A DNA stretch of 31,501 nt, taken from positions 1-31,501 of IMG/VR virus record IMGVR_UViG_3300000268_000002; one strand, written 5' to 3'. Position 1 is the stretch's first letter, and each line of letters starts with the position of its first letter. Under the pieces are notes generated by a model. That model did no database searches, was not told the origin of the DNA, and worked only from the letters and a program-made list of their open reading frames with translations. Both the position numbers and the translations under genes were made by a program. Positions 4,284 through 31,501 of this stretch are shown here, piece after piece. The stretch comes from a virus.

Positions 4284-5105
4284 ATGGCGACTACTACCAC
4301 TTCTCAAATTGACCCAACAATCCAACCATTTCTAACTTATGGTTTGACTGAGGCACAAAAGCTGTATCAAGGCGGTGGTCCTCAGTACTATGGTGGTCAG
4401 ACTTATGTAAGCCCATCTGAGACTACTCAAACTGGTTTACAGGCTCTTGAGCAACGAGCAAAGTTGGGTAATCCATTACTTCAGTCTGCACAAGGTCAAT
4501 TGCAAAACACTATTTCTGGTGGATTCTTGCAAGGCAATCCATTCTTTCAAGGTGCTTTCCAACCTGCGGCAACAGCGGCAGAGGCTCAGTTTAAGCAAAC
4601 ATTGGGTGATGTAGGTTCTGCGGCATCCAAAGCAGGTCGCTATGGTGGCGGTGCAATGCAATCTTTGCAAGATCGTGCAAGCGGTCAATTTGCTAAGAGT
4701 TTGGCTGATACTGCTGGACAACTGGCTTATCAGAACTATGCCCAAGAAAGAGCCATGCAACAAGCGGCTACGATGGCTGCCCCACAAATGGCTTCTGCTG
4801 ACTACCAAGACATTCAGAACTTGTTAGCGGCAGGTCAGGCTCGTGAGGGTTATACAGGTCAACAGCAACAAGCTGATATTGCTCGATTTAACTTCTTGCA
4901 AAACCAACCACAACAGAACTTGCAGAACTATCTGTCATTGGTTTATGGCAACCCATTGGGTCGTGTTGGTCAATCTACAACAAGTGGTGCGGCAGACACT
5001 TCTGCTCTGCAAAACTTGTTAGGCGGTGCGGCTGTATTAGGTGGACTAGAAAAGAATACAGGGTGGCTCAGTAAGGGATGGAACGCCTTGTTTAATACAC
5101 CTTAA
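4284..5105 (+). CDS. Putative DNA-ejection / internal virion protein
   Basis: 273 residues, Gln/Ala/Gly-rich and helical. After a Thr-rich start it has the block NPFFQGAFQPAATAAEAQF, then VGSAASKAGRYGGGAMQSLQ, then a long Q-rich helix (ENYAQERAMQQAAT-like region near 150-200), and a Gly/Ala segment LLGGAAVLGG near the C-terminus. I associate this layout with P22 gp7-like ejection or tail-lumen proteins. GGAG lies seven bases before the ATG. It is first of three such genes and directly follows the promoter at 4206. Confidence 0.6.
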   Translation: MATTTTSQIDPTIQPFLTYGLTEAQKLYQGGGPQYYGGQTYVSPSETTQTGLQALEQRAKLGNPLLQSAQGQLQNTISGGFLQGNPFFQGAFQPAATAAEAQFKQTLGDVGSAASKAGRYGGGAMQSLQDRASGQFAKSLADTAGQLAYQNYAQERAMQQAATMAAPQMASADYQDIQNLLAAGQAREGYTGQQQQADIARFNFLQNQPQQNLQNYLSLVYGNPLGRVGQSTTSGAADTSALQNLLGGAAVLGGLEKNTGWLSKGWNALFNTP

Positions 5106-5115
5106 GGAATAAATC

Positions 5116-6393
5116 ATGGCTGGACTATTAGACATTTTTGGTACTGGTGGAGTGGACACTATGGGTCTGCTCGGTATGTCTCCCGAGGACATTAAGCGTA
5201 GTCGTGACGATGCTCAAGCACAAGCCTTGTATGCCCTAGCAGGTAGATTGTTCCAAGGTGGTAATACTGGTCAGTCTATTGCTGAAGGTTTGCAAGCTGG
5301 TCAGAAAGCCTACAAAGGTGGCATTACTGATGTTATGCAAGGTCAGTTGCAGAATGTTCAATTGCAAGACTTGATTCGTAAGCGTCAATTAGAACAACAA
5401 GGATTGGCAGAACAAAAGCGTATTCAGACTATATTGAGTCAAGGCGTAACTCCAGAACAAGTTACATACGATGGCGTACCAAGTCAATTCCCTGCCCGGG
5501 ATGACCAAGGTAACTTAATGCCAAATATGGCTATAAAACCATCTGGTTTTGATATAGGTCGTATTGCACCGCAGTTAATGGGTTCTGCTGAAGGACGCAA
5601 GACATTGGCTGAATTGATGGCTGCTCAAAAGGCGATATCAGGTGAGACTACTACATTGGCTGAAGGTGCTAATCTTATTAGGATTAACCCTGTTACAGGA
5701 AAAGTTGAAACTGTTGCTCAAGGCGCACCAAAGCGTGAGCCAGTACCTAGTGCAATTGCTGAATACAATTTTGCAAAAGACCAAGGTTTTAAAGGAACTT
5801 TCCAAGATTTTGAGTTGGCTAAACGATCCGCTGGCGCACCTAAATTAGCGGTAGATTTAAAAGACCCAACAGCAGTAGCAAAAGCACAATCTGATGTTTT
5901 AAAAGATTGGCGTGGTGTTGTAAAAGATACTGGTGCAATGGAAGTTGCTGATAGATTTAAAGCGGCAAAATCTGCTGTTCAAGAGGGCAACTCAGGAAAC
6001 AAAGCCGCTGATGGTGCATTGATTTATGCAATCGGTAAGATTTATGACCCATCAGGCGCTGTTCAAGAAGGCGATAAAGCCACAATTCTTGGCAATCGTT
6101 CTATCCCACAATCAATTAAAGCCTATGCTCAACGAGCATTGAATGGTCAATCATTGCTCCCAGAAGAACGAGCAGGTTTGCTTGCAGTAGCGTCTAAGGT
6201 TGTTGAGTCAAAGGCTCGTAACCTTGAAGCACAAAAAGCACCTTATACAAGTATTGCTCAACAATTAGGCGGTAATGGTTCTTTGTTGCTAAACCCTCTT
6301 TCAGAAGCGCTGGCTGCTACTGTTGAAATGTCTCCTGCAATGCCATCGATGGCTGACATTCAAGCTGAGATTGCTCGTAGAAGGAAACCATAA
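5116..6393 (+). CDS. Putative internal virion/ejection protein
   Basis: 425 residues, mainly helical, Gln- and Ala-rich. The N-terminus (LLGMSPEDIKRSRDDAQAQA, LAGRLFQGGNTGQSIAEGL) is followed by a predicted coiled coil near 75-105 and a middle without recognisable motifs. The C-terminus ends in a short amphipathic MADIQAEIARRRKP helix. AAGGA lies seven bases before the ATG, and the stop overlaps the next start (TAATG). Its place between two ejection-like genes supports co-packaging and release with the DNA. Confidence 0.55.
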   Translation: MAGLLDIFGTGGVDTMGLLGMSPEDIKRSRDDAQAQALYALAGRLFQGGNTGQSIAEGLQAGQKAYKGGITDVMQGQLQNVQLQDLIRKRQLEQQGLAEQKRIQTILSQGVTPEQVTYDGVPSQFPARDDQGNLMPNMAIKPSGFDIGRIAPQLMGSAEGRKTLAELMAAQKAISGETTTLAEGANLIRINPVTGKVETVAQGAPKREPVPSAIAEYNFAKDQGFKGTFQDFELAKRSAGAPKLAVDLKDPTAVAKAQSDVLKDWRGVVKDTGAMEVADRFKAAKSAVQEGNSGNKAADGALIYAIGKIYDPSGAVQEGDKATILGNRSIPQSIKAYAQRALNGQSLLPEERAGLLAVASKVVESKARNLEAQKAPYTSIAQQLGGNGSLLLNPLSEALAATVEMSPAMPSMADIQAEIARRRKP

Positions 6394-8291
6394 TGGACTT
6401 AACTAAACTGTCAGACGAGGACTTGTTGGCGCTGCAATTAGGCGACTTATCAAAAGTCTCTGATGCAGGTTTGGCTATTCTTGGTGGGACTGCTGTTGAG
6501 CAACCAAAGCCTACTAAGAAAATGACAAGGGCAGAGGCTATCAAGGAAATCACTACTGCACCTAAAGCTGAACAAATGCAATTAGGTAGTGTTAGTGATT
6601 TTGGTCGCCAATTAGGTTTGACAGGCAGAGCCGCAGTAACTGGTGCTTTGTCTATTCCTACAATGGGTGCTGATGCGCTTACAGGGCTTATCAATCTGTT
6701 AGCAGGTCGTCAAGTCATGCAACCTACTAGCCAAGCATTGCAAGGCTTAATGACGCAAGCTGGTGTTCCTTCTCCACAGACACCACAAGAGCGTGTCGTT
6801 CAAGATGTAACAAGTGCAGGTTTTGGTGTTGCTGGTCCTGCATCTATGGCTAGAAATATGCCATCGGCAGTACAAGAATTCTTCACTAAGAGTTTAGGTA
6901 CTCAGGGCGCTGCGGCTACGGCAGGTGCATTGGCTTCTGGTGCGGCTAGAGAAAGTGATGTTGGTCCTGTTGGTCAAACTGTTGGCGCTTTGATGGGTTC
7001 TATTGGTGCGGGTGGTGCGGTAGGTGCTGCTCCTGTTCTTGCTAGAACTACTAAAGAGATTGTTCGTCCATTTACACAAGCAGGTCGTGAAGTTATCACA
7101 GGCAATGTGTTGCGTGGTTTGGCTACTGATGCTGAACAAGCAATTAAAGCAGGTGAGACTTTTGTGCCTAAAGTTGGTGGATATACGCCTACTACTGCAC
7201 AAGCCACAAGAGATATTGGTTTGATTAGCGCAGAGACTCCTATCCGTGGATTGGATGTAACTGGTGGTCGTTTTGGTGTTCAGACTGCTGAAGCTAATCA
7301 GGCTCGTATGGCTGTATTGAATCGTCTTGCAAAGGACGAGGATGTATTGCAAGCGGCTTTAAAGAAGCGTGATGAGGTTACTGCACCATTGAGAGAGCAA
7401 GCATTTGCCAACTCTACTGTTGACCCTGACACATTCCAGTCTGGTGTTGCTTTGACTGTTAACAAGACTATTGATGACATTCTCAATTCTCCTGTTGGCA
7501 AGCGTCAGACTGTCATGTCTGTGCTAAACGATGCTAAAGACGATATTGCTAGAGCATCTACCCCTGCTGAACTGTATGAGATTCGCAAGGATTTGAGGGC
7601 TGCTGCTCAAGGCTTGTTAGACAAGTCTGCTAAGAACGGACCTACCTCTGGTGCATACAGAGCCGCTAAACCTCAACTTGAGGCTGTTATTCGTGCGGTG
7701 GACGATGCTATTGAAGCAGGTGCTACTGGATACAAAGATTACTTGAGAAAGTATGCGGCTTCTAGCAAAGGAATTGAGCGTCTTGAGGCGGCACAAGAGT
7801 TCAAGAACAAGGTTCTATCTACAACTCCTGACCCATCAAGAGTTAACGACTATTTGATTTCTCAACCTAAGTTTTTAAATGCTATTCGTTCAGCAGAAAA
7901 AGAGACTAAGTTGTCTAACACTCAGTTGGCTGTTTTGCGTAAGGTGGCAGAAGACTTAGATAGTGGTGTATTGCCAAGAGCAACAAAGCCAGCAGGTTCA
8001 GATACATTTAAAAACATGAGTACCGCTAATGTGATTGGTGGAATGATTGGTAAACAGATGTTTGGTGATGTTCCACTTGCTTTGCAAAAGGTAACTGCAC
8101 CAATGAATTGGCTTTATAACGGCACAGACGATGCTATTCGTGAGTTGTTGGTTGATGCAATGCTAGACCCTAAACTAGCGGCTACATTGATGAAAAAAGC
8201 ATCAGTTATGACAGTAGAGCCTCTAAACAGAGAATTGCAACGCAAAGCACTAGCATTGGGCTATGGTGCTGCATTTGGATTAACGGAGTAA
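6393..8291 (+). CDS. Large ejection protein with hydrophobic Gly/Ala segments
   Basis: 632 residues. About 90-250 is rich in Gly/Ala/Val with stretches such as GFGVAGPASMARNMP, GAAATAGALASGAA and VGALMGSIGAGGAVGAAP that could insert into membrane. The remainder is charged and helical (NQARMAVLNRLAKDEDVLQAAL, AYRAAKPQLEAVIRAVDDAIEAG). Pore-forming ejection proteins of short-tailed phages have this division into hydrophobic Gly/Ala and soluble helical parts. GAAGGA precedes the ATG. No lytic transglycosylase motif was seen. The function is inferred from composition and context. Confidence 0.58.
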   Translation: MDLTKLSDEDLLALQLGDLSKVSDAGLAILGGTAVEQPKPTKKMTRAEAIKEITTAPKAEQMQLGSVSDFGRQLGLTGRAAVTGALSIPTMGADALTGLINLLAGRQVMQPTSQALQGLMTQAGVPSPQTPQERVVQDVTSAGFGVAGPASMARNMPSAVQEFFTKSLGTQGAAATAGALASGAARESDVGPVGQTVGALMGSIGAGGAVGAAPVLARTTKEIVRPFTQAGREVITGNVLRGLATDAEQAIKAGETFVPKVGGYTPTTAQATRDIGLISAETPIRGLDVTGGRFGVQTAEANQARMAVLNRLAKDEDVLQAALKKRDEVTAPLREQAFANSTVDPDTFQSGVALTVNKTIDDILNSPVGKRQTVMSVLNDAKDDIARASTPAELYEIRKDLRAAAQGLLDKSAKNGPTSGAYRAAKPQLEAVIRAVDDAIEAGATGYKDYLRKYAASSKGIERLEAAQEFKNKVLSTTPDPSRVNDYLISQPKFLNAIRSAEKETKLSNTQLAVLRKVAEDLDSGVLPRATKPAGSDTFKNMSTANVIGGMIGKQMFGDVPLALQKVTAPMNWLYNGTDDAIRELLVDAMLDPKLAATLMKKASVMTVEPLNRELQRKALALGYGAAFGLTE

Positions 8292-8294
8292 AAC

Positions 8295-10559
8295 ATGGCA
8301 AAGACAAAAATCTCAGAATTCAGCGCTACCCCTGCGAATAACACAGACATTGACAATATCAATATCGCAGAGGGCTGTGCGCCTAGTGGTATCAATGATG
8401 CTATCCGTGAGTTGATGGCTCAATTGAAAGATTGGCAATCTGGCACTTCTAATGACCCTTATGTTGTTGGCTCGTCTGGTAGCCTAACGCTTAATCAAGG
8501 TACTGCCAATGGAGTAGCGTATTTAAACGGCTCTAAGGTCGTTACAAGCGGTTCTGTCCTCACATTTGACGGAGCAATCCTTGGTGTGAATGGAATTTCT
8601 GTTGGTCGTGGTGCAGGTGCTGTGGCTTCAAATACTGCGGTGGGTGTTAGTGCTTTGGCGGCTAATACGACTGGTCTTGCAAACGATTCTTTTGGCTATC
8701 AATCACTTAATAGCAATACTACAGCAAATGAAAATGTGGGTTTTGGCTATCAAACTTTATATTCTGCTACAACTGGTGGAACAAATACAGCACTAGGAAG
8801 TGCCGCTGTTCGCAGTACCACAACAGGCGCAAGCAACACAGGCGTTGGCTATCGTGCCCTCTATTCCAACACTACAGCATCAATGAACACCGCAGTAGGC
8901 AACCAAGCCGCTTACAGCAACACTACAGGAACTGGAATTCTTGCTATTGGTAGCCGAAGCCTGTACAGCAATACTACTGGAACAGGCAACTTGGCTGTTG
9001 GTACTTCTGAAAGTGGTGGATATGAGGGAGCGCTTTTTGCAAACACCACTGGTGCAAATAACACTGCTGTTGGACAGCGCTCAATGGTTGCAAACACCAC
9101 AGGTGGAAGTAATGTAGCTGTTGGTCGTGATGCCCTTTTTGCCAACACCACAGCATCAGGAAGCACTGCTGTTGGTTATCAAGCTGGCTATAGTGGAACA
9201 ACAGCGCAATACAACCAATACTTTGGCTATCAAGCTGGCTACGCAACCACTACTGGTTCTGGAAATAATGCGTTTGGAACGCAAGCGCTTACGGCTGTAA
9301 CTACTGGTCAGTTAAATGTGGCGATGGGTAACAGCGCCATGATTTCCAACACTACAGGCTCTAATAACATTGGTATTGGTGATAATGCACTTCGCTCTAA
9401 CACCACAGCAACCTATAACACCGCTGTAGGCTATCAGTCATTGTATGCAAATACTACTGGTGTAAATACCGCAGTAGGTGCTGGAACATTGGATGCCAAC
9501 ACAACAGGCACAGGAAATACCTCTATGGGGTATTTCACTCTGTCTGATAACACAACTGGAAGTAACAACACCGCATATGGGCAAACAGCACTTGCCGCCA
9601 ATACTACGGCATCTAACAACACCGCTGTAGGTTATGAAGCGTTGTACGCAAATACTACAGGAACTGCCTCAGTTGCGGTTGGTAGGAGGGCTGGTTACGC
9701 AAACACAACAGGAGAATATAATGTCTTTGTTGGAGAGCAGTCTGGTTTATTCAACACCACTGGGTCTGGAAACACTTTTGTTGGTGAATACACTGGAAGT
9801 GCCGTAACAACAGGTGGCGGCAATACATTTATTGGTTCTACTATTACTGGTTTTGGTTCTGGCTATCTTGTAACAACAGGATCAAAAAACTCTATTCTTG
9901 GCGCTTACTCAGGCAACCAAGGTGGCTTAGACATCCGCACTGCCAACAACTACATCGTGCTGTCTGATGGGGATGGGAATCCACAAGCGTTATGTAACAA
10001 CGCTGGGGGATGGTACGCAGGGATGGGGACAAAGAACGAAGATGGGCTTTTGTCGCTTTTATCAAAAGAAGCCGATACAAACGGACCTGTTTTAATCGGA
10101 AGAACTGGAGCGCTTGGAAGCACAACAGCACGATGGTACGCAGGTTCATATTCATGGGTTAAAGGCGGTACTAACTACGACAACTTTACTGTTGCTTCTG
10201 GCTCTGCTGGCAGTGGAGGCGTATATCTTTCCGCTGGCGCAACATCTTGGGCTTCTGCTTCTGATGAGCGTAGAAAAGATATTATTGAGCCAATTATTGA
10301 TGCAGCAAACAAGGTAACTCAACTGCGTGCAGTTATTGGTAAATACAAAACAGATGAAGAAGGCACTCGCAGAAGTTTCTTGATTGCTCAAGATGTGCAA
10401 GCAGTATTGCCAGAGGCTATTGTTGTTTCACAAGATAGAGATGGCGAAGTGCTTGGCGTTCAATACACCGATGTAATCCCACTTCTTGTAGCCGCAATCA
10501 AAGAACAACAAGCAATCATTGAATCACTCAAGGCACGCTTGGATGCCGCTAATCTTTAA
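8295..10559 (+). CDS. Long tail fibre with C-terminal S74 intramolecular chaperone
   Basis: 754 residues in three parts. Residues 1-100 are a fibre N-terminus (ISEFSATPANNTDIDNINI, INDAIRELMAQL) likely to dock to the virion. Residues 124-520 hold about 23 units of 17 residues of the NTTGxxNTAVGxxALxA type, resembling YadA-type head beta-roll repeats, hence probably a trimeric shaft. The C-terminal 99 residues are a Peptidase_S74 domain starting SDERRKDI (Ser656, Lys661 as the expected catalytic pair) with FLIAQDVQAVLPEA and YTDVIPLLVAAIKE. Self-cleavage before Ser656 would release the chaperone after folding. GGAG precedes the ATG. Confidence 0.88.
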   Translation: MAKTKISEFSATPANNTDIDNINIAEGCAPSGINDAIRELMAQLKDWQSGTSNDPYVVGSSGSLTLNQGTANGVAYLNGSKVVTSGSVLTFDGAILGVNGISVGRGAGAVASNTAVGVSALAANTTGLANDSFGYQSLNSNTTANENVGFGYQTLYSATTGGTNTALGSAAVRSTTTGASNTGVGYRALYSNTTASMNTAVGNQAAYSNTTGTGILAIGSRSLYSNTTGTGNLAVGTSESGGYEGALFANTTGANNTAVGQRSMVANTTGGSNVAVGRDALFANTTASGSTAVGYQAGYSGTTAQYNQYFGYQAGYATTTGSGNNAFGTQALTAVTTGQLNVAMGNSAMISNTTGSNNIGIGDNALRSNTTATYNTAVGYQSLYANTTGVNTAVGAGTLDANTTGTGNTSMGYFTLSDNTTGSNNTAYGQTALAANTTASNNTAVGYEALYANTTGTASVAVGRRAGYANTTGEYNVFVGEQSGLFNTTGSGNTFVGEYTGSAVTTGGGNTFIGSTITGFGSGYLVTTGSKNSILGAYSGNQGGLDIRTANNYIVLSDGDGNPQALCNNAGGWYAGMGTKNEDGLLSLLSKEADTNGPVLIGRTGALGSTTARWYAGSYSWVKGGTNYDNFTVASGSAGSGGVYLSAGATSWASASDERRKDIIEPIIDAANKVTQLRAVIGKYKTDEEGTRRSFLIAQDVQAVLPEAIVVSQDRDGEVLGVQYTDVIPLLVAAIKEQQAIIESLKARLDAANL
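8664..9854 (+). repeat. About 23 coding repeats of 51 bp
   Basis: Each unit encodes 17 residues starting (N/T/V)TT(G/A). Exceptions are one unit with a 7-residue insertion (GGYEGAL region near 9010) and one shortened by a residue (NTTGVNTAVG, near 9455). ACTACAGGA/ACCACAGCA-type segments recur. The tract is prone to recombination and to assembly collapse. Confidence 0.8.
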
Positions 10560-12710: not shown

Positions 12711-13207
12711 TGTTTGGCATACCATTACCTTGGTTGCTGTTCGGACTCTGTATAACCTTATTTGGCACATACAGAGGTGGCTACCACTTTGGTTGGTCTG
12801 ACAGGGATAAGGAAATGCAGATTGAGATTGCTCGAAAGAATGAGGAATCTCGTCAGACAGAATTGAAACTTACTGAAGAACTAAACGCTAACGCTAATAA
12901 ATTACTGGAGGTTAACAATGTTGTCAATCAGAAACAGTCTGCTCTTGATCGTGCTATTAGGGCTGGTAGGGTGCGCCTCCCCTCCACAAGTTGTGTACAA
13001 GCCTCCCCAAGTCCCTCCGTTGCCCCCACAGATCAAGAAACAAGAAGTCAACCTGACAGACAGACTAACGAAGCTACTGATGCCGAACGAGCAACCCTCG
13101 CAGCCATTGCAGAAATAGTCGCACAGGGTGATAGAAACACAGCCCAACTAAATGCGTGTATTGACGCTTACGAAACTGTTAGAGAGCAATTAAATGGTAA
13201 ACGCTGA
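12710..13207 (+). CDS. Inner-membrane spanin (i-spanin, Rz-like)
   Basis: 165 residues. A signal-anchor at about 6-24 (LPWLLFGLCITLFGTY) is followed by a periplasmic charged helix (ELKLTEELNANANKLLEV) and a C-terminal helix (TDAERATLAAIAEIV). With the o-spanin gene nested inside it in the +1 frame, this is the classical Rz/Rz1 arrangement. It would span the periplasm and fuse the membranes after endolysin action. The start is in TAATG, and the end overlaps the endolysin start by 14 bases. Confidence 0.82.
   Translation: MFGIPLPWLLFGLCITLFGTYRGGYHFGWSDRDKEMQIEIARKNEESRQTELKLTEELNANANKLLEVNNVVNQKQSALDRAIRAGRVRLPSTSCVQASPSPSVAPTDQETRSQPDRQTNEATDAERATLAAIAEIVAQGDRNTAQLNACIDAYETVREQLNGKR
12918..13118 (+). 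CDS. Outer-membrane spanin lipoprotein (o-spanin, Rz1-like), nested
   Basis: 66 residues read in the +1 frame wholly inside the i-spanin gene. The signal (MLSIRNSLLLIVLLGLVGC) ends in a lipobox with Cys19, giving a 48-residue mature lipoprotein. That is rich in Pro (PPQVVYKPPQVPPLPPQ), as in Rz1 proteins. TGGAGG lies seven bases before the ATG. Nested position, lipobox and Pro content together make this call strong. Confidence 0.85.
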   Translation: MLSIRNSLLLIVLLGLVGCASPPQVVYKPPQVPPLPPQIKKQEVNLTDRLTKLLMPNEQPSQPLQK

Positions 13208-13793
13208 ACAACTAAAGAAACTTCACATTGGTGAACAATGGGTAGAGCCATTAAATGAGACTTTTGCTAGGTTTGATATTTCTACGCCTATTCGTCAAGC
13301 ATCGTTTATTGGTCAATGTGGGCATGAGTGTGGTGGATTTAAGACACTTGAGGAAAATCTGAACTATCGTGCAGAAACTTTAATGAAGCTATGGAAAAAT
13401 CGTTTTCCAACGCTTGAGGTTGCAAACCAATATGCTAGAAATCCTAAAAAAATTGCTAATAAGGTTTACGCCTCAAGGATGGGGAATAGAGATGAATCGT
13501 CTGGTGACGGCTATCGTTTCCGTGGTCGTGGTTGTATTCAGCTTACTGGTCATGCTAATTACTATCACGCTGGTACTGCTTGCGGTGAGGATTTTGTTAT
13601 TAATCCTGATCTAGTGGCAACGCCTAAGTATGCTGCTATGACTGCGGGTTGGTTCTGGAATACGCACAAACTCAATAAATACGCTGATCTGCAAGATTTC
13701 TTGATGATGACAAAAAAGATTAACGGAGGCACGATAGGATTGGACGATAGGATTCGTCACATCAATCATGCTCTGGATGTTTTAAATGGCTAA
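13194..13793 (+). CDS. Endolysin, glycoside hydrolase 19 (chitinase-like) family
   Basis: 199 residues. The N-terminal active-site block reads FIGQCGHECGGFKTLEENLNY. Glu45 (in HEC) is the expected catalytic acid and Glu54 the second acidic residue. GDGYRFRGRGCIQLTG (105-119) is the typical GH19 phage-endolysin substrate motif, followed by WFWNTHKLNKYAD. There is no signal peptide, so release depends on a holin. The 200-residue length is normal for single-domain GH19 endolysins. It overlaps the i-spanin end and the next start. Confidence 0.9.
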   Translation: MVNAEQLKKLHIGEQWVEPLNETFARFDISTPIRQASFIGQCGHECGGFKTLEENLNYRAETLMKLWKNRFPTLEVANQYARNPKKIANKVYASRMGNRDESSGDGYRFRGRGCIQLTGHANYYHAGTACGEDFVINPDLVATPKYAAMTAGWFWNTHKLNKYADLQDFLMMTKKINGGTIGLDDRIRHINHALDVLNG

Positions 13794-14160
13794 CATACCC
13801 ACTCAACAAGACGCTGAATTATTTGCCAAGAGTGTTAAAAAGTGGCAACAAGTCTTGAGTTTGGGTGATTGGAGAATTGAAAAAGGTACGAAGCCAGCTA
13901 AACAGGCAATGGCTTCTGTAGAGTTCAACGAGTCGGCAAGACTAGCTGTCTATCGTTTGGGTGACTTTGGTGCTGAAAAGATTACGCCTGAGTCACTAGA
14001 TAAGACTGCCTTACATGAACTACTGCATATATTCCTACATGATTTAATGGTGGTTGCTACAGACCCAAAGTCCTCAGACGAGGATATTGAAATGCAAGAG
14101 CATAGGGTCATCAATCTGCTTGAAAACTTGATTTTTAAGGATTCTCATGGGCGCACATAA
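13786..14160 (+). CDS. HELLH zinc-metalloprotein, SprT/phage metallopeptidase-like
   Basis: 124 residues with H77-E78-L-L-H81-IFLH85, an HExxH zinc signature in a helix. A downstream EMQEHRVINLLENLIF helix carries Glu105/His106 as a possible third ligand. The N-terminal part (KKWQQVLSLGDWRIE) is typical of small phage metallopeptidase-like proteins. It follows the endolysin with an 8-base overlap and lacks a signal peptide. The substrate is unknown; the lysis operon gives a place, not proof of function. Confidence 0.65.
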   Translation: MANIPTQQDAELFAKSVKKWQQVLSLGDWRIEKGTKPAKQAMASVEFNESARLAVYRLGDFGAEKITPESLDKTALHELLHIFLHDLMVVATDPKSSDEDIEMQEHRVINLLENLIFKDSHGRT

Positions 14161-15130
14161 TGAAACTTGTTCCGACACAGAGTTCATCCAACTATGGGGT
14201 CAACTTGAATCTGCGGCAAGAATGGCTGAACACCTCCAGATCAACATTAGAGCGATTCATTTGCGTAGAAGGTGGATTGAGCAGCACTACAAAATTACTC
14301 TAGGTGCATCAGATCATCGTGGTTTGGCTTACGATAAAAGACCTCAATCATTCTCTCCCTTAAAACAGATAGACCTCGGTATCCTAGATGGTACTGTCAT
14401 TGTTTTCTCTGATGCTCACTTCATACCCAACCAACGATCAACAGCGTTTAAAGGGCTTCTATGGGCTATCCAAGAGTTCAAACCAAAGGCGGTGATATGT
14501 AATGGTGATGCTTTTGATGGCTCGTCTATATCGAGGCATGATGTAACTGATCTACCGCAGACATCTGTTATTCAAGAGTTAAAGGCTTGTCAGGCAATGC
14601 TTGGCGAAATAGAGGAGATTGCAAAGGATGTCCGACATAATGTAAAGCTACTGTTTACATTCGGAAATCACGATGTAAGGTTTGCCAATAGACTTGCCCA
14701 ACACGCACCACAATTTAAGGATGTAAAAGGTTTTAAGCTGACAGATCACATTCCTGATTGGGAATTCTGTTGGTCAGTATGGGCTACACCTAACTGCATC
14801 ATTAAGCACCGATACAAGGGCGGCATCCATGCGACTCATAACAATACTGTGAACGCTGGTGTATCAATCGTAACTGGACACTTGCACAGCCTTAAAGTAA
14901 CGCCATTTAGCGACTACAAGGGTGCTAGGTATGGTGTGGATACAGGAACACTTGCTGAGATAGATGGTCCACAGTTTACCTACGCTGAAGGCAATCCAAG
15001 TAACCACAGATCAGGTTTTGCAGTATTGAACTTCTTTAACGGCACATTGTTGTTGCCAGAGTTGGTGCAGAAGTTTGATGAGGACTTGATCGAGTTCCGT
15101 GGTGAAGTTATTGATGTAGGTGCATTTTGA
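14147..15130 (+). CDS. Calcineurin-like metallophosphoesterase
   Basis: 327 residues. The full set of metallophosphoesterase motifs is present in order: D89-A-H91, G120-D121 (NGDAFDG), GNHD 173-176, H228/H231 (GIHATH) and GHLH 244-247. The first 60 residues are an unrelated helical region that may bind DNA (MAEHLQINIRAIHLRRRW). The substrate is not predictable; phosphodiester or nucleotide substrates are known for the family. AAGGA lies six bases before the ATG, with a 14-base overlap with the metalloprotein. Confidence 0.87.
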   Translation: MGAHNETCSDTEFIQLWGQLESAARMAEHLQINIRAIHLRRRWIEQHYKITLGASDHRGLAYDKRPQSFSPLKQIDLGILDGTVIVFSDAHFIPNQRSTAFKGLLWAIQEFKPKAVICNGDAFDGSSISRHDVTDLPQTSVIQELKACQAMLGEIEEIAKDVRHNVKLLFTFGNHDVRFANRLAQHAPQFKDVKGFKLTDHIPDWEFCWSVWATPNCIIKHRYKGGIHATHNNTVNAGVSIVTGHLHSLKVTPFSDYKGARYGVDTGTLAEIDGPQFTYAEGNPSNHRSGFAVLNFFNGTLLLPELVQKFDEDLIEFRGEVIDVGAF

Positions 15131-15270
15131 GTGCTTGGCTAATCATTCTCACAGGGGCGATCTACGCCTATATAGCTGGTGAGCAGCTATGGAAAGATAA
15201 CCCACACATGGCTATCGTGTACGCAGGGTACGCCTTTTCAAATGTGGGTCTTTACTTACTTGCTAAGTAG
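15127..15270 (+). CDS. Two-TM membrane peptide with TTG start
   Basis: 47 residues read from TTG at 15127, overlapping the preceding TGA. Two hydrophobic segments (SAWLIILTGAIYAYIAG and AIVYAGYAFSNVGLYLLA) flank a short charged loop (EQLWKDNPHM). I have the impression that this IYAYIAG...YAGYAFSNVGL layout recurs in small phage membrane proteins. Its TAG overlaps the convergent MazG stop by eight bases. It closes the rightward late region. Confidence 0.65.
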   Translation: MSAWLIILTGAIYAYIAGEQLWKDNPHMAIVYAGYAFSNVGLYLLAK

Positions 15271-15571
15271 AGTCTTTAACAAACAATCCATTAGGCAATA
15301 GTATGCCTTTCCGATTCTTAATCTGATCGTATGCAACTTCCATGCAGTCTACCAGATTTAGGTCTTGTAGAGCGCAGTAATTAACAAGGCATACCATAAC
15401 ATCCCCGACACTATCAACAATAGCGTCACGATCTTTTTTAATGGTTGCATCTGCTAGTTCTCCGAGTTCAGACATAGCCTTGAGAAGCTGAGTCTCTGGT
15501 GTACTGTTAGGAATAATTTTCCTAGCTTCAGACCATTGAATGATCTTTATTTCAACATTTGCGTATGACAT
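15263..15571 (-). CDS. MazG-like nucleotide pyrophosphohydrolase
   Basis: 102 residues from the ATG at 15571, with GGG in the preceding codons as Shine-Dalgarno. An earlier in-frame ATG at 15586 adds five residues. The MazG signature is E35-L-G-E38 followed by VDSVGDVM (D53, D57), and the AYDQIKNRKG end is typical of phage MazG-like proteins. It would hydrolyse NTPs or dNTPs, or lower alarmone signals during infection. It is last in the leftward operon and overlaps the previous gene by 20 bases. Confidence 0.82.
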   Translation of the reverse strand: MSYANVEIKIIQWSEARKIIPNSTPETQLLKAMSELGELADATIKKDRDAIVDSVGDVMVCLVNYCALQDLNLVDCMEVAYDQIKNRKGILLPNGLFVKDST

Positions 15572-15872
15572 TCCATTCCCTTTCATTTCTACCTGAGTTA
15601 GATTTGACTGTGTTTCCTGTTAACTCAATCAATCCGATTATTTTCATTTCATTCAAACGCCTAGCGACTTGGTTGCCATCTAGTTTGGTTAGACTGGCGA
15701 TACCATCTTTACCAAGCGCACCATGCTCTTGTAGGCACTCTAAGATAATCTGGTGATGCTGAGATGCTACTGGCTTGATTGCCTCTGCTGCTTCAAAAGA
15801 AGTGAGTGGGTCTGATGCCCTTACTCTTGGGAAGTCAGGAAAGATGCGATCAAAATACTTTTTGTAATCCAT
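15552..15872 (-). CDS. Winged-helix DNA-binding protein
   Basis: 106 residues from ATG 15872, preceded by AAGGAG at good spacing. The ORF stays open upstream to 15917, but that ATG has no site. The core is SDPLTSFEAAEAIKPVA, then IILECLQEHGALGKDGIASLTKLDGNQVARRLNEMKIIGLIEL, a winged helix-turn-helix with recognition helix near 66-76, ending in a basic SNSGRNEREW. I associate this SDPxTSxEAA start with small phage regulators in recombination operons. The operator is unknown. Confidence 0.7.
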   Translation of the reverse strand: MDYKKYFDRIFPDFPRVRASDPLTSFEAAEAIKPVASQHHQIILECLQEHGALGKDGIASLTKLDGNQVARRLNEMKIIGLIELTGNTVKSNSGRNEREWNVIRKC

Positions 15873-15957
15873 TATTTTCTCCTTGAGGCGGGTACTCGCT
15901 GCGTCTGTTTGCCACAAGGTGTTCCGAGTGGCGAGGGCTATTACCTCCCTCCAGCAT
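15850..15957 (-). CDS. Possible 35-residue gene in a structured leader
   Basis: On the minus strand an ATG at 15957 has AGGGGA six bases upstream. It opens a 35-codon frame (MLEGGNSPRHSEHLVANRR start) that ends 23 bases inside the winged-helix gene, so coupling is possible. The DNA can also form two hairpins, GAGGG/CCCTC (15933-15937 with 15947-15951) and GCCAC/GTGGC (15911-15915 with 15928-15932). Whether it is a gene, a structured leader, or both is undecided; no family recognised. Confidence 0.4.
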   Translation of the reverse strand: MLEGGNSPRHSEHLVANRRSEYPPQGENNGLQKVF

Positions 15958-15979
15958 CCGCTTTCCCCTATTAACTTAT

Positions 15980-16225
15980 TTAAAATGGCGCATCGTCAAA
16001 GTCATCTCTAAGAGAACGCTTTGTAGGTGCTTTAGCTTCCTTCTGATCTTTAGCCTTGATAGACAAGGACATAAATTTAGCGCCATCTTTGCTTTCTTTT
16101 AGCCATGCGCTAATCCAGAAATCTACACCCTCTACATTGAGTGACCCTTTGTAGTGAGGAAACTTCTCATCATCTCTACGCTCGTTCTTAAATAAAGCGC
16201 CTCTATTTTCATTGTTGTATTCCAT
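15980..16225 (-). CDS. SSB-like protein with acidic C-terminal tail
   Basis: 81 residues with strong AAGGAG six bases before the ATG. The layout is YNNENRGALFKNERRDD, then HYKGSLNVEGVDFWISAWLKES, then FMSLSIKAKDQ, a single small beta domain related by look to the DUF736-type proteins. It ends in DDFDDAPF, an acidic tipped tail like the protein-docking tail of single-strand binding proteins. It lies between HNH and winged-helix genes, downstream of the annealing protein. DNA binding is an inference. Confidence 0.6.
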   Translation of the reverse strand: MEYNNENRGALFKNERRDDEKFPHYKGSLNVEGVDFWISAWLKESKDGAKFMSLSIKAKDQKEAKAPTKRSLRDDFDDAPF

Positions 16226-16718
16226 TTAATGCTCCTTTATAAGCTGAAAACTCTTTATGCAACTTGTTGGTTGCTTCTATTGCTACTAGTTCAGCTAATT
16301 CCTTATTGTCGTAGTAACCAAAACTATGACACTTTGAATTAACTCTTATTTGCACATACCATTTTTTATCTCTTTTGTGCCACATTACTCCTTTAATTCC
16401 TGTTGTATTACGAGTGCTAACTTTTTGATTCATGCAATTTTGAGACTTTGTTGCTTCTCTCAAATTTTCAATTCGATTGTTAGTTTTGTTGTTGTCTATG
16501 TGGTCAACATAGTCTGGCAAATATCCATAGTGATACAGAAAAATTAGCCTGTGAGTTTTATGCAGTTTTGAGTTGACATGGATTCTGTAATAGCCAGTTT
16601 TTTCGTCTAATGAGCCAGCAGCCTGACCTATTTTTATAGCATTGGCTTTTTTGACTTTCCAATACAAAACTCCATCTGCATAATCAAAATATTCACAGAC
16701 TTCTTTTTGTGTAATCAT
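16209..16718 (-). CDS. HNH endonuclease with AP2 domain, homing-type
   Basis: 169 residues. The HNH_3-type core has H56-R57, then VDHIDNNKTNNRIENLREAT (D72-H73 and N80-N81 region). After it the AP2-like TTGIKGVMWHKRDKKWYVQIRV at about 105-155 probably contributes DNA binding. The gene starts directly after the ERF stop (TAA then ATG) and its last codons contain the ribosome-binding site of the SSB-like gene. It is more AT- and Lys/Asn-rich than its neighbours, suggesting recent arrival as a free-standing mobile gene. Confidence 0.85.
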   Translation of the reverse strand: MITQKEVCEYFDYADGVLYWKVKKANAIKIGQAAGSLDEKTGYYRIHVNSKLHKTHRLIFLYHYGYLPDYVDHIDNNKTNNRIENLREATKSQNCMNQKVSTRNTTGIKGVMWHKRDKKWYVQIRVNSKCHSFGYYDNKELAELVAIEATNKLHKEFSAYKGALNGIQQ

Positions 16719-17324
16719 TTATAACTCCTTAGACTTTTTGATAGAACTTCTCACTTTACTAGGCAACAGAGTCCACAAGGCTACTTTTTGTTCAGCGTCT
16801 AGGTTCTCTGCTTCCAACTTTACCCAAGCGGTCTTAGGTTCTTCTTTATCACAGAGAGCAATTAAATCCATTGCTAACTCTTTGAGATAAATCTGTTCGT
16901 CCTCTGGGAGACTATCCATTGCACCTTGTGTAGGTGTGATGATTACCTCTTTGATAGGCGCAGAGGAGTCCAGAGCATCATGCTCAACAATCTCCATTGC
17001 TGTTACCCAAAGGTAGCGTCTGGTGTAGGTTTCTACAGCACCAAGGTTCTGGATAGGATGGCAACCCTTTAGGTTAGCATCAGCCATTGGTGAAGTGATG
17101 ATGATGTTAGTACCATCGTCTGTGTCTGTGATGGTCAGGCTTGCAATCTCAGCATCGTATGAGACTACGCCACAAAGACCAACTTCATTAAAGATTGAAT
17201 TGATTGTGGGGATAAAGTCACCAAGTTCAAAGTATGAGTAGCCAGCAAACTTATTGTGACCAGACTTCTTGAGTGGTGCGTTTTGCAACATGATTCGTGC
17301 TTGCATTAACTTCTTATGTACCAT
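16719..17324 (-). CDS. ERF-family single-strand annealing protein
   Basis: 201 residues from ATG 17324 with AAGGA at 5-7 bases; a weaker upstream ATG at 17339 adds five residues. The ERF signature is NKFAGYSYFELGDFIPTINSIFNEVGL, then KGCHPIQNLGAVETYTRRYLWVTAMEIVEHDALD. The TYTRRY and late HDALD parts are conserved in this recombinase group. It would anneal complementary strands in recombination-dependent replication or repair. The C-terminal 80 residues are a helical, charged extension. Confidence 0.82.
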   Translation of the reverse strand: MVHKKLMQARIMLQNAPLKKSGHNKFAGYSYFELGDFIPTINSIFNEVGLCGVVSYDAEIASLTITDTDDGTNIIITSPMADANLKGCHPIQNLGAVETYTRRYLWVTAMEIVEHDALDSSAPIKEVIITPTQGAMDSLPEDEQIYLKELAMDLIALCDKEEPKTAWVKLEAENLDAEQKVALWTLLPSKVRSSIKKSKEL

Positions 17325-26995: not shown

Positions 26996-27174
26996 TGTAT
27001 GTAGAACGACAAGGGGTCAATCTTTCCCCAAAGATAAAAGAACTTGAAACTCGACTCGAAATGTTAGAAAATGTGGTAAAAGCATTACAATTGGAAAAGC
27101 CCAGAATGGGTCGCCCCCCAAAGGACAAACATGGCACAGAACGAGTTGAAGTCAATACTACAGGCAGAGATTGA
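26995..27174 (+). CDS. Small coiled-coil protein with AT-hook-like tail
   Basis: 59 residues from ATG 26995 (TAATG with terminase). An earlier ATG at 26983 falls inside the terminase and is rejected. SPKIKELETRLEMLENVVKALQLE is a coiled coil; MGRPPKDK resembles an AT-hook. It overlaps the portal start by 44 bases. A DNA or terminase accessory role is inference. Confidence 0.65.
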   Translation: MYVERQGVNLSPKIKELETRLEMLENVVKALQLEKPRMGRPPKDKHGTERVEVNTTGRD

Positions 27175-29263
27175 CGATTCTATCGGCTACATCGAGAGCG
27201 AGACTGTAGATCAACGAAAACAAGCTCTACAGGCTTACTTGCGTCAACCTTACGGAAATGAGGTAGAAGGCAAGTCTCAGATCGTTACTGGTGAGGTAGC
27301 TGAAGCCATTGATGGCGCATTGCCTAGCCTAGTCCGTATCTTCACAGGCTCTGACAATATCGTGGTTTTTGAGCCACAAGGACCTCAAGACGAAGCGTCT
27401 GCCAAGCAAGCAACTGACTACTGTAACTGGGTTTTTAACCGAGACAACGAAGGTGTAGCCATTCTGCACGACTGGTTTAAAGATGCTTTGCTACAGAAGA
27501 ACGGCATCGTAAAAGCCTATTGGGAAGATAAAGAGGACATCACTAAAGAGCGTTACTTTAACTTGTCTGAGGACGAGTTAGCCATGCTGATGAGCGATGA
27601 GAGCATGGAGATTGTCGAGCAAGATACGACAGAATTCCCGATATTTGACCCAATGGGACAGCCAGTTGTTGACCAGATGGGTATGCCAGTTATGGGTGCG
27701 ACACACAATGTCGTAGTCCAAAAGAAAAAGAAATCAGGCAAGGTAACGATTGAGAATGTTCCTCCAGAGGAATTCTTGATTAGCAAAAATGCTCGTACTA
27801 TTGCTGATAGCCCATTCGTAGCCCATCGTCAAATGATGACTCGTAGTGATCTGATTGCTATGGGTTTCAACAAGAAGCAAGTTGAAGGATTGCAAATTGG
27901 TGATGCTCTAGCTTATACGCCAGAGCGTGTGGTTCGTTTCTCTGCGGGTGAGCAGCCTTACCAAGTTCAGACTGATGACCCATCAATGCAAGAGATTGAG
28001 GTCTTTGAGTGCTATATCAAAACTGATATAGAGGGCAAAGGTATTGCTTCACTCGTCCAAGTGTTCTATGCCTCAAACGAGATTCTTGAGGACGAGAATG
28101 GTAAGGAAATGGTTGAGGAAGTGGACTATGTGCCATTCCACTCAATCTGCCCTATCCCAATTCCGCACAAGTTCTTTGGCAACTCACTTGCTGACAGAAC
28201 AACAGACTTACAGTTAATCAAAACGACTATCACTCGTCAAATGTTGGATAACTTATATCTGACAAACAATGCACGAGTTGTCGCTGTTGAAGGGCAGGTA
28301 AACCTTGATGACTTGCTTACATCTACTGCTGGTGGTGTTATTCGTGCTAAGTCTCAAGGTGCTGTTCAACAACTTGTAGTCCAGAATGTAGCATCTCAGG
28401 CTTTCCCAATGCTTCAGTACTTGGATACAGTCCAGTCAAAGCGTACTGGTGTATCTGATGCTTCTCAGGGCTTAGACCCATCTATCTTGCAGAATGTGAC
28501 TGCTGCGGCTGTTGCTTCTATGCAACAAGCTGGCGCAGGTAAGATTGAACTAATGGCTCGAATCTTTGCTGAGACAGGTGTTAAGTCTTTGTTCCAAGGC
28601 ATCTTGCATCTCTTGTGTAAGTATCAGGACAAGCCTCGTTTGGTTCGTATGCGTGGTGAGTTCGTAGAGTTTGACCCTCGCACATGGGCTAACCAATACG
28701 ATGTTTCAATCAATGTTGGTTTGGGTGCTGGTAACAGACAAGAACAGATGGCTATGCTGTCGATGGTTCTTGCCAAACAAGAGCAGTTGATTGCTCAGTA
28801 TGGTCCTGCTAACCCTTATGTTTCACCTGCACAGTATCGTGGCACTTTGGGTCGTATGGTTGAGATTGCTGGCTTTAAGGACTCTGCTGAGTTCTACAAG
28901 GCTATTACACCAGAGCAAGATCAGGCTTTGAGCAATCCTCCCCCACAGCAACAGCAAATGCCTCCAGAGGTTCAAGCTATCATGGCTAGAACACAGGCTG
29001 AGATACAAGCTAACCAAGCCAAAGCACAAGCTGACATTCAGTTGAAGCAACAGCAAATGCAGATTGACATGGAGATGGCTCAACAAAAGGCAGGTCTTGA
29101 AATGCAATTGATGCGTGAGAAAGAGGCTGCTAAGTTGATGCTTGAGCGTGAGAAACAACAGGCTTACTTTGCGATGAAACAGCAAGAGTTTGAGGTTGAG
29201 GCTCAATTGAAAGCAATGAAGGTAGGTGCTGGCATTACTAGCAATGTAGAAATTAAGGGCTAA
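27131..29263 (+). CDS. Portal protein
   Basis: 710 residues, AAGGA five bases before the ATG. The order IDDSIGYIESETVDQRKQAL, then VTGEVAEAIDGALPSLVRIFTGSD, then WVFNRDNEGVAILHDWFKDALLQKNGIVKAYWE, then PVPHSICPIPIPHKFFGNSLADRT-like middle (FHSICPIPIPHKFFGNSLAD), then TAAAVASMQQAGAGKIELMARIF is the portal layout of P22-type short-tailed phages. The last 110 residues are a long Gln/Ala/Met-rich coiled coil (barrel-like, reaching into the head). It forms the dodecameric ring on which head and tail meet. Confidence 0.88.
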   Translation: MAQNELKSILQAEIDDSIGYIESETVDQRKQALQAYLRQPYGNEVEGKSQIVTGEVAEAIDGALPSLVRIFTGSDNIVVFEPQGPQDEASAKQATDYCNWVFNRDNEGVAILHDWFKDALLQKNGIVKAYWEDKEDITKERYFNLSEDELAMLMSDESMEIVEQDTTEFPIFDPMGQPVVDQMGMPVMGATHNVVVQKKKKSGKVTIENVPPEEFLISKNARTIADSPFVAHRQMMTRSDLIAMGFNKKQVEGLQIGDALAYTPERVVRFSAGEQPYQVQTDDPSMQEIEVFECYIKTDIEGKGIASLVQVFYASNEILEDENGKEMVEEVDYVPFHSICPIPIPHKFFGNSLADRTTDLQLIKTTITRQMLDNLYLTNNARVVAVEGQVNLDDLLTSTAGGVIRAKSQGAVQQLVVQNVASQAFPMLQYLDTVQSKRTGVSDASQGLDPSILQNVTAAAVASMQQAGAGKIELMARIFAETGVKSLFQGILHLLCKYQDKPRLVRMRGEFVEFDPRTWANQYDVSINVGLGAGNRQEQMAMLSMVLAKQEQLIAQYGPANPYVSPAQYRGTLGRMVEIAGFKDSAEFYKAITPEQDQALSNPPPQQQQMPPEVQAIMARTQAEIQANQAKAQADIQLKQQQMQIDMEMAQQKAGLEMQLMREKEAAKLMLEREKQQAYFAMKQQEFEVEAQLKAMKVGAGITSNVEIKG

Positions 29264-29265
29264 TC

Positions 29266-31501
29266 ATGGCTAGAAATAACTTTTACTCAATGGTCAACGA
29301 TGATGGCGAGGTATCGCTTGAAGACTTGTTGATGCAAATTGAGCAGTTACAGCCTGTCTACCAAGAGCCAGATGTTGATTATTACGCACAGCAATTTGCA
29401 CCAGATGTATTTGCTGAAGTGCCTACTCAAGTCTATCAACCAGAGCCTGTATATCAACCTACATATCAGCCAGAGCCAGTTTATCAGCCTGTCTATCAAG
29501 AGCCAGTTTACATTGCACCAGAGCCTGTGTACCAAGCACCTGCGCCTGTATATGTAGCACCAGAGCCAGTTTATGCAGCGCCAGAGCCTGTATATCAAGA
29601 GCCTGTGTATCAGCCAGTCTTTCAACAACCAGAAGTTCAACAGCCTTATGTTGAGCCACAAACTGTTCAAGAAGTTATCAATCAGATAGCAGCACAATTT
29701 CCTCCGTCTGTGGTCAACGAGATCATTGCTAGAGAGCCAATTGAGCAACCTATTCAACGAGATGCAGACGCACCAGTTGAGCAGTTGCAACCTGCACAGC
29801 CAGTAGAAGAAACTAAGCCTTCAGCATCGGTTATTGATAACCTAACAAAGCAAATATTAGGCTCTAGCGACACTTCTCAATGGAAAGGTGGCGTAAGTGC
29901 TGAGACTGCCGCTAAAGACATGGCTAAGATCATGGCTGGCATTGGCATCACAGACATTAGTCAGTTTGGCAAGATCACACAAACTGGCTTGCAAGAGGAT
30001 GTCCGTCCTGATGGTCGTGGTGGTTATGTTGACCAACGAGGCAATCCTGTTGACCCTAACATTGTCCAAACAGGTTCGTACGAGACTGAAGGCGGTCGCA
30101 TTGACTATGCTACTGCACCTATTGGCACACAAGTAACTTACGGCAACAAAGAAACAAACCAAGCTGTACCGATCACATATAGTGAGCGTCAGACTGGTAA
30201 CGCTTTTGGTGGTACTTTTGAGGGCAAAGGTAACACAGGCTATCGAGTAGATTTTGATGCTTCTGGTAAGCCTGTTTTCTATACGACTGGTGCTTCAAGC
30301 CGTGATGACATTGGTGTGTTTGCACCGATTATTGCTGCGGCTTTGACTCCTATTCTCGGTCCTGCTGCCGCTTCATTGCTTGGACCAACAGCCTCAACAC
30401 TAGCCACAAACGCACTAACTGGTGCTTTGGTCGGTGGTAGCACTTCAGCGATTACTGGCGACAGTATTGCAAAAGGTGCATTGCTTGGTGGTGCAGGTGG
30501 CGCTGTTGCAGATATTGTCAGTCCTTATTTGCCATCAGCACCAACAGAATTGACTGAGCGTCAGTTTGCAATTGCTGATGCCAAACAATTGGCTGCTAGT
30601 GGTATACCGCCAGAGCAAATATCAGAAATATTAAGTGTTGGTGGATATAACGATGCTATTGTCAATAGGGCAATGGACGCTATTGCAACAGCACCAGTAG
30701 CTGTTACTACACCAACTACTCAGCCTCCAATTGAGACTGTTCAAGTTTCTGCGCCTGTAGCGACAACACCAACAGCAAGTCAAGTAATCAATGCGATTGT
30801 TAACCAACAACCAGTTCCTCAAGTAGCTGCACCAGTAGAAACAGTACAGGTGACTGAGCCTACTCAGCCTGTTCAGACAACTACACCAAGTGTAAATGAA
30901 GTAATCAATTCGATTATTCAGCCTGTATTAACAGAGCCGCCAGTCGTTGAGCCAACTCCTACATCAGTTGCACCAGTTGAGACTGTGCAAGTTAACGAGC
31001 CTGTTCAACCTACTACACCGACTGTTAGCGAAGTAATCAATTCGATTGCTCAGACACCAGTTGTCCAACCTACTGTTACAGCACAACCAACTGTTGAAGT
31101 TGTTGCTAAACAAGCGCCAACACAAGTAGAGCCAAGCGTAATAAACGCTGTTAATTCATCTATTGCGGCTAATGCAATTCGTCCTGTTGAAACTGTTAAT
31201 GTTTCTGCTGCATCAGAAAAGCCTACAACAGTAAATCAAGTTCTTGCGACAATTGCTAATCCATCTGCTGTTACCCCTTCTACACCAGAGGTGGTTGTAA
31301 AGTCTTCAGCACCTAAAGAAGAGCCAGTTACACCTATTGTTACGCCTATTGTTAATGAAACACCAACAGTAGAAGTAACATCAATTCGAGAGAAGCCAAG
31401 CACGATTACAAACGAGACAGAGCCAGCCCCTGTGATTGTTGCGCCTCCGATTACTGGAACAGTACCTCCTAAGACCTACACAGCCTCTGAGATCATTGAT
31501 A
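29266..31501 (+). CDS. Giant repeat protein after the portal (partial, 3' end outside the window)
   Basis: At least 745 residues from ATG 29266 (AAGGG seven bases before), open to the window end. Parts: acidic start; residues about 55-125 of EPVYQ/EPVYxAP repeats; a charged, Gly-rich middle; a Gly/Ala hydrophobic part about 350-420 that could insert in membrane; then Pro/Thr/Val-rich linkers separating short (E/Q)V(I/L)NxI segments near 136, 506, 545, 589, 625, 658 and 742. No enzyme motif seen. Its place where scaffold or coat genes usually lie is striking. A virion role is likely but not identified. Confidence 0.65.
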   Translation, partial: MARNNFYSMVNDDGEVSLEDLLMQIEQLQPVYQEPDVDYYAQQFAPDVFAEVPTQVYQPEPVYQPTYQPEPVYQPVYQEPVYIAPEPVYQAPAPVYVAPEPVYAAPEPVYQEPVYQPVFQQPEVQQPYVEPQTVQEVINQIAAQFPPSVVNEIIAREPIEQPIQRDADAPVEQLQPAQPVEETKPSASVIDNLTKQILGSSDTSQWKGGVSAETAAKDMAKIMAGIGITDISQFGKITQTGLQEDVRPDGRGGYVDQRGNPVDPNIVQTGSYETEGGRIDYATAPIGTQVTYGNKETNQAVPITYSERQTGNAFGGTFEGKGNTGYRVDFDASGKPVFYTTGASSRDDIGVFAPIIAAALTPILGPAAASLLGPTASTLATNALTGALVGGSTSAITGDSIAKGALLGGAGGAVADIVSPYLPSAPTELTERQFAIADAKQLAASGIPPEQISEILSVGGYNDAIVNRAMDAIATAPVAVTTPTTQPPIETVQVSAPVATTPTASQVINAIVNQQPVPQVAAPVETVQVTEPTQPVQTTTPSVNEVINSIIQPVLTEPPVVEPTPTSVAPVETVQVNEPVQPTTPTVSEVINSIAQTPVVQPTVTAQPTVEVVAKQAPTQVEPSVINAVNSSIAANAIRPVETVNVSAASEKPTTVNQVLATIANPSAVTPSTPEVVVKSSAPKEEPVTPIVTPIVNETPTVEVTSIREKPSTITNETEPAPVIVAPPITGTVPPKTYTASEIID
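29428..29640 (+). repeat. Coding repeats of EPVYQ type
   Basis: The tract repeats CCAGAGCC(T/A)GTxTAT and CAGCC(T/A)GTxTATCAA words about eight times, encoding Glu-Pro-Val-Tyr units with Gln, Pro or Ala spacers. Unit length varies. Antisense ORFs here come from this composition and are not genes. Confidence 0.75.
30781..31501 (+). repeat. Spaced coding repeats with VINxI core
   Basis: GAAGTAATCAATTCGATT is identical at 30898-30915 and 31030-31047; weaker copies are at 30781, 31138, 31237 and 31489. Core spacing is about 33-44 codons with one longer gap, and an ETVQV segment recurs between them. Confidence 0.65.

Follow-up and report, generated by a model that had tools for sequence, protein, structure and literature searches.

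Podoviruses carry ejection proteins (P22 gp7/gp16/gp20, T7 gp14/gp15/gp16 and SU10 gp20-24) with membrane-like segments; some have enzymatic domains, and mosaic exchange of domains and modules between them has been described (PMC8954989). A giant protein encoded at the right-hand end of the DNA stretch analyzed here (the window; 31,501 nucleotides of an IMG/VR virus record) resembles these proteins in its predicted membrane-like segment and in its mosaic, partly enzymatic family, and the window phage, an uncultured short-tailed virus, also has an SU10-type portal and a nozzle. It differs from them in that no sequence or fold match is detectable and in that its gene adjoins the portal gene instead of following the nozzle. 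T7 gp15 is described as highly folded and helical (PMC8954989), whereas the giant appears mostly disordered with repeated helix motifs.

Three other systems offer comparisons. By eye, and from genes alone, the proteins annotated as tail (length) tape measure in Caulobacter phage GB2A and phage DSL-LC04 follow the same plan as the giant, with a folded part, a Gly/Ala hydrophobic segment, Pro/Thr linkers (bearing VDEIVVTP-like motifs in GB2A) and a C-terminal domain; however, they have no BLAST-detectable copy of its folded domain, D1, and their C-terminus is unlike that of the window type. Sinorhizobium phage phiM5, whose head operon is LUZ24-like, encodes a GDSL/SGNH particle protein (ARV77515) from a gene flanked by those for coat and tail, but at 436 aa this protein has, by eye, neither a Gly/Ala membrane-like segment nor VINxI repeats. 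The internal proteins of T4 (IPI-III and Alt) join a constant tag to a variable passenger and are packaged and injected; their tag is N-terminal and is cleaved there, while the constant part of the giant is C-terminal.

Results and Discussion

A repeat-rich reading frame at the window end

The giant's frame has no stop up to the window end. The original prediction, made from the sequence of the window, had described EPVYQ repeats, a Gly/Ala hydrophobic segment and at least six VINxI modules; we confirmed the EPVYQ tract, the segment and six VINxI motifs. In 2000 shuffles, which keep composition only and, here and below, ignore kinship among proteins, the mean counts of EPVY, PVYQ and the VINxI-type pattern [VI][IV]N.[IV] were 0.02, 0.03 and 0.20; the window giant has 7, 7 and 6 copies, the last starting at residues 137, 149, 507, 546, 590 and 625. 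Hydrophobicity peaks at residues 348–375 (Kyte-Doolittle 1.85), inside the Gly/Ala-rich stretch. The protein lacks Cys, as do the three ejection-type proteins of the same phage (ej1-3); the scaffold is Cys-free too. Mis-assembly of repeats as the origin of the frame is unlikely, because nucleotide repeats within the gene are only 60–90% identical and because independent contigs (L002-L008) carry the same gene.

Table 1. Features of the giant gene and related genes in the window.
Feature	Coordinates	Strand	Remarks
Ejection-type gene set of the window phage	4284..8291	+	273 aa, 425 aa, 632 aa
Portal protein (SU10/LUZ24-like)	27131..29263	+	PF23899 SU10_portal, 2e-217; directly upstream of giant
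Giant mosaic protein	29266..31500	+	ATG, 745 codons; frame open at window end
Motif copy 1, SLEDLLMQI	29314..29340	+	residues 17-25, close to N-terminus
EPVYQ/PVYQ Pro-Tyr-Glu-Gln tract	29356..29625	+	N-terminal module, swapped among relatives
Motif copy 2, TVQEVINQI	29662..29688	+	residues 133-141
D1 domain, VIDNLTKQILGSSDTSQW...ERQTGNAFGGTFEGKGNTGYRV...TTGASS	29830..30300	+	AlphaFold2 pLDDT near 90 over most of it
Gly/Ala hydrophobic, membrane-like segment	30307..30516	+	residues 348-417
TERQFAIADAK...YNDAIVNRAMDAI module	30553..30687	+	residues 430-474; swapped among relatives; ends placed by eye
Bipartite repeats [VETVQV(T/S/N)-(A/E)-P] + [TVxEVINxI], Pro/Thr/Val linker	30721..31275	+	
Motif copy 3, TASQVINAI	30772..30798	+	
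Motif copy 4, SVNEVINSI	30889..30915	+	
Motif copy 5, TVSEVINSI	31021..31047	+	
Motif copy 6, TVNQVLATI	31228..31254	+	

An additional gene between portal and scaffold

Relatives were collected as 44 loci at first, and then as the best 80 of 324 confirmed stretches by D1 and the best 80 of 225 by C-terminus. Where the locus of a giant with this C-terminus extends into the neighbouring genes, these run from terminase through portal, the giant, a 79-aa gene, scaffold, coat, adaptor and nozzle to the ejection-type genes. The giant had been proposed to stand in the place of the scaffold, and this proved incorrect: a separate scaffold gene (311 aa; PHROGs phrog_3927, 4.5e-52) follows one small gene later, with the major capsid protein (phrog_1328, 5.9e-115) after it, and dozens of relatives have a giant between the portal and a separate scaffold. 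The scaffold profiles (phrog_3927/9013) did not match the giant. We therefore rejected the identification of the giant as the scaffold. The two ends of the window map 2.86 kb apart in L005, so that the missing stretch corresponds to the rest of the giant, the 79-aa ORF, the scaffold and the coat. Three LUZ24-like isolates, tf, phiM5 and Venkman, lack the giant and have a small gene of about 75–85 aa between portal and scaffold (phiM5 has an additional 37-codon ORF there); thus, the giant is an extra gene. Methylophilales phage Venkman is the closest isolated relative by portal (54%).

The portal stop lies 2 bp from the start of the giant, and DNA similarity between relatives and the window breaks off at this boundary. 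In 53 of 66 loci the break fell no more than 30 nt from the start codon of the giant; the upstream portal DNA was conserved (82–98% identity, except for three loci near 70%). The other loci are close relatives or have the N-terminal motif in common, and most of them stayed similar past the start. The clearest case is L023, with 98.0% identity to position +5 and nothing beyond. Because similarity stops at the start codon though the portal DNA is conserved, the giant gene is, judged by these alignments, an exchange slot next to the portal.

In one contig, L168, another giant body is encoded on the reverse of the first (3168-3809), and 134-nt inverted repeats of 86% identity flank the C-terminal region. 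This arrangement suggested a DNA-inversion switch, but the contig is more probably chimeric, since the 79-aa gene ends abruptly near the join. L138, which has head genes on both strands, is probably chimeric as well.

A mosaic family without a name

Relatives of D1 were found in at least 324 viral contigs and relatives of the C-terminus in at least 225. No D1 relative was confirmed among 84,980 cellular genomes, and none of the C-terminus in cellular genome contigs; with no cellular relative confirmed for either part, an origin as a prophage or host gene was set aside. The 68 distinct complete proteins of the slot range from 433 to 1061 aa, and full-length relatives are mosaics in which a swapped N-terminus leads to a middle domain, the Gly/Ala segment and repeat linkers; a second short hydrophobic stretch, seen by eye, comes next, and the C-terminus is constant. 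The N-terminal modules comprise the EPVYQ tract, GDSL/SGNH, dockerin, a Gln/Ala coil and an ANP-type helical module, as classed by rough regular expressions that left 29 proteins without a class. The middle domain is D1 or one of several alternative types distinguished by eye. GDSL/SGNH families matched 14 of 42 relatives scanned (L026, for example, has a GDSL domain at its N-terminus) and dockerin matched 2 of the 42; Pfam detected no GDSL/SGNH domain in the window protein. The hydrophobic segment peaks at 1.4 or above on the Kyte-Doolittle scale, a measure from sequence only, in most relatives.

AlphaFold2 gave a pLDDT near 90 across most of D1, and confidence outside D1 in a short relative was mostly low, including the hydrophobic segment and the linkers. 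D1 is a confidently predicted domain with no fold match in the PDB, and fold searches of PDB and BFVD gave no match at E≤0.001. Sequence search of the PDB gave no match, with a single hit for the C-terminus at E 0.25. In Pfam, PHROGs and NCBIfam the window protein matched no named family above the cut-off (phrog_342 matched the giant only weakly, at E 0.01–0.09), and no fibre or receptor-binding family matched it in Pfam or PHROGs. The suggestion that no described family has this arrangement therefore held against these databases. The giant belongs to a new, unnamed mosaic family, seen here only in viral sequence, which is abundant and marks a portal-adjacent recombination slot. Among its members, the giants of L023 (4155-7340) and L024 (6094-9516) have long, coiled-coil-like repeats after D1, with weak matches to Apolipoprotein and HTH_SUN2 models.

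A C-terminal motif specific to the slot

The VINxI modules belong within a wider, SINDVISGI-like motif, [ST][ILVAT]x[DEQN][VILA][ILV][NSAM]x[IV], which occurs 232 times in 69 slot proteins (the 68 complete ones and that of the window), whereas composition shuffles yield 2 on average. Its most constant copy, SINDVISGIQNQYGQ, is at the C-terminus: SINDVISGI or a variant lies within the last 40 residues of 67 of the 68 complete proteins. This copy falls beyond the window end and had been overlooked, as had a strand-like V-x-V/I-T-A/G motif that often stands 15–21 residues upstream of the VINxI helix (62 pairs family-wide versus 6.5 in shuffles). A further 140 copies are internal, and 23 of the 69 proteins have the motif within their first 60 residues. 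The helix half of the repeat has a hydrophobic moment of 0.283, compared with 0.145 when shuffled.

The portal, scaffold, coat, nozzle and ejection-type proteins of these phages contain no copy of the motif, or hardly any. Its enrichment in the slot and near-absence from other virion proteins point to a partner specific to the phage type, which would most simply be a head protein. Giants of other slots showed no enrichment with a looser pattern, save weakly in a type fused to an ejection-type protein (see below); the C-terminus of giants placed after the coat gene (SQDYFNAIQQNY) resembles, by eye, that of the slot. The original prediction of short motifs in a disordered chain that bind multivalently is supported in part by the enrichment, the near-universal C-terminal copy and the slot specificity. 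Its option of DNA as the ligand is disfavored, because the window giant has a net charge of −50 and all complete members of the slot are acidic. We also considered mimicry of the TonB box (ETVQVTAP resembling DTxVVTA). The TonB-box consensus begins with a conserved [DE]-T. Of the 54 distinct repeat units, just 16 preserve both of these residues, and the core conserved among the units is instead V-x-V/I-T-A/G; this reading is therefore unsupported.

D1 within and beside ejection-type gene sets

The first protein of the window phage's own ejection-type set, ej1 (273 aa), matches a DNA ejection protein family (phrog_4287, 3.1e-12), and an ejection-type role is assigned to the 425-aa and 632-aa proteins from gene position only. 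In this phage type the giant lies outside the post-nozzle ejection set, whereas D1 relatives in other phages lie inside such sets. Elsewhere D1 occurs in three settings. In L012, L016, L019 and L022 it stands alone, preceded by the coat gene and p110B; larger phages have it behind the nozzle; and in a third group it is part of a fusion at ejection slot 1. In this last setting, seen in L065, L091, L098, L104 and L105, D1 and a hydrophobic part are joined to the slot 1 protein of the ej1B family. Proteins of the L030 type similarly join an SGNH-like N-terminus, the hydrophobic segment and repeats to an ej1B-like part, which is 51% identical to stand-alone ej1B over 222 aa. Among 12 B-backbone contigs, a giant after p110B (with stand-alone ej1B) and an ej1B fusion were never found together (5 versus 7, in a hand tally of contigs that are not phylogenetically independent and that includes the L044 giant, which has no BLAST-detectable D1).

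The D1 giants found behind the nozzle in larger phages precede a further gene set. The nozzle-adjacent set of L095 ends in a vRNAP-like protein of 1279 aa (13137-16976), and it is the C-terminal end of this protein that hits the family of virion RNA polymerases (phrog_2206, 2.6e-14). Another D1 giant, that of L078, has the C-terminus common to the GB2A and DSL-LC04 "tape measure" proteins, whose genes head sets closed by a "lytic tail" or "DNA transfer" gene. Apart from the weak phrog_342 matches, searches of PHROGs and, at E≤0.001, of PDB and BFVD linked the giant itself to no known ejection protein by sequence or by fold. Homology between the ej1 of the window type (ej1A) and ej1B, which are syntenic, was rejected after hhalign detected none, and ej1B is accordingly classed as an ejection protein by position only.

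What the giant may do

The likeliest reading, to which we give about an even chance, is that the giant is an internal virion protein of modular build that belongs to the ejection (pilot) kind and uses its C-terminal motif to dock in the head. It would be made together with the head proteins, and SINDVISGIQNQYGQ, aided by the internal copies, would dock it to portal, scaffold or coat and so allow its packaging. During infection it would exit via the portal and nozzle. Its Gly/Ala segment would then insert in a host membrane, and whichever N-terminal module it carries, be it an enzyme, a calcium-binding unit or a repeat tract, would act upon the host envelope. The slot, the D1-ej1B fusion, the hydrophobic segment, the GDSL/SGNH matches and the Cys-free composition are consistent with such a role, as are the lack of contigs with both a giant and a fusion, the post-nozzle D1 giants, the C-terminus common to L078 and the "tape measure" proteins, and the module swapping described for ejection proteins. 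Against it, A-type phages already own a three-gene ejection-type set elsewhere, the Cys-free trait is not distinctive given the scaffold, the hydrophobic segment and linkers are low-confidence regions of the model, and SGNH and dockerin modules would also fit a surface protein.

That last fit leads to a rather unlikely alternative, a surface-exposed virion protein (a capsid or tail decoration, or an adhesin-enzyme) that docks by its C-terminus and whose N-terminal modules bind or deacetylate polysaccharide of the host or the environment. The enzymatic and dockerin matches would suit it, as would the annotation of the phiM5 SGNH protein, encoded between coat and tail tube, as detected in particles; B-backbone giants precede tail-fibre-like genes, and rapid module exchange, as in this family, is typical of host-contact proteins. 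However, a Gly/Ala hydrophobic segment in most members would be odd for a surface fibre, other phages have D1 inside their ejection-type gene set or joined to one of its proteins, and the window phage has its own S74-chaperone fibre. An organizer of head assembly that binds portal or scaffold, gathers subunits through its repeated motifs and may not be retained in the virion is close to the original prediction and agrees with the slot in the head operon, the slot-specific, near-universal C-terminal motif with its internal repeats, and an acidic, Cys-free composition like that of the scaffold. We consider it improbable, given the separate scaffold, the missing gene in related isolates, the unexpected enzymatic N-termini and hydrophobic segment, and the ej1B fusion that puts the same modules elsewhere. 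Less probable still is a non-virion late protein that acts on the host envelope or defence and owes its operon position to expression only; extreme N-terminal turnover and related isolates without the gene speak for it, but the C-terminal motif is fixed despite N-terminal exchange, and in other phages the modules are placed in, and fused to, ejection-type sets.

If the ejection-type role is correct, short-tailed phages would swap envelope-crossing modules while leaving the head untouched. A broader form of this idea, which we regard as unlikely, is a polymorphic delivery system in which a fixed C-terminal docking tag, SINDVISGIQNQYGQ, loads interchangeable N-terminal passengers into the capsid for injection. 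Internal copies of the tag would add avidity, the passengers would be hydrolase, calcium-binding, repeat and D1 domains, and phages would exchange them by recombination at the portal-adjacent start codon. The fixed C-terminal motif is a candidate packaging tag open to direct test.

Other genes in the window

A 296-aa protein (1117-2007), conserved in relatives, directly precedes the nozzle gene and is built of ASITGNATVTA-like repeats, after which come TWTPVSxDxNTW repeats. The fibre (8295-10559), 754 aa long, contains many repeats of the form N-T-T-G-x-x-N-T-A-V-G and terminates in a Peptidase_S74 chaperone (1.7e-7). The window also encodes a GH19-type endolysin candidate (13194-13793; 1.8e-12) and a metallophosphoesterase (14147-15130; 6.2e-7).
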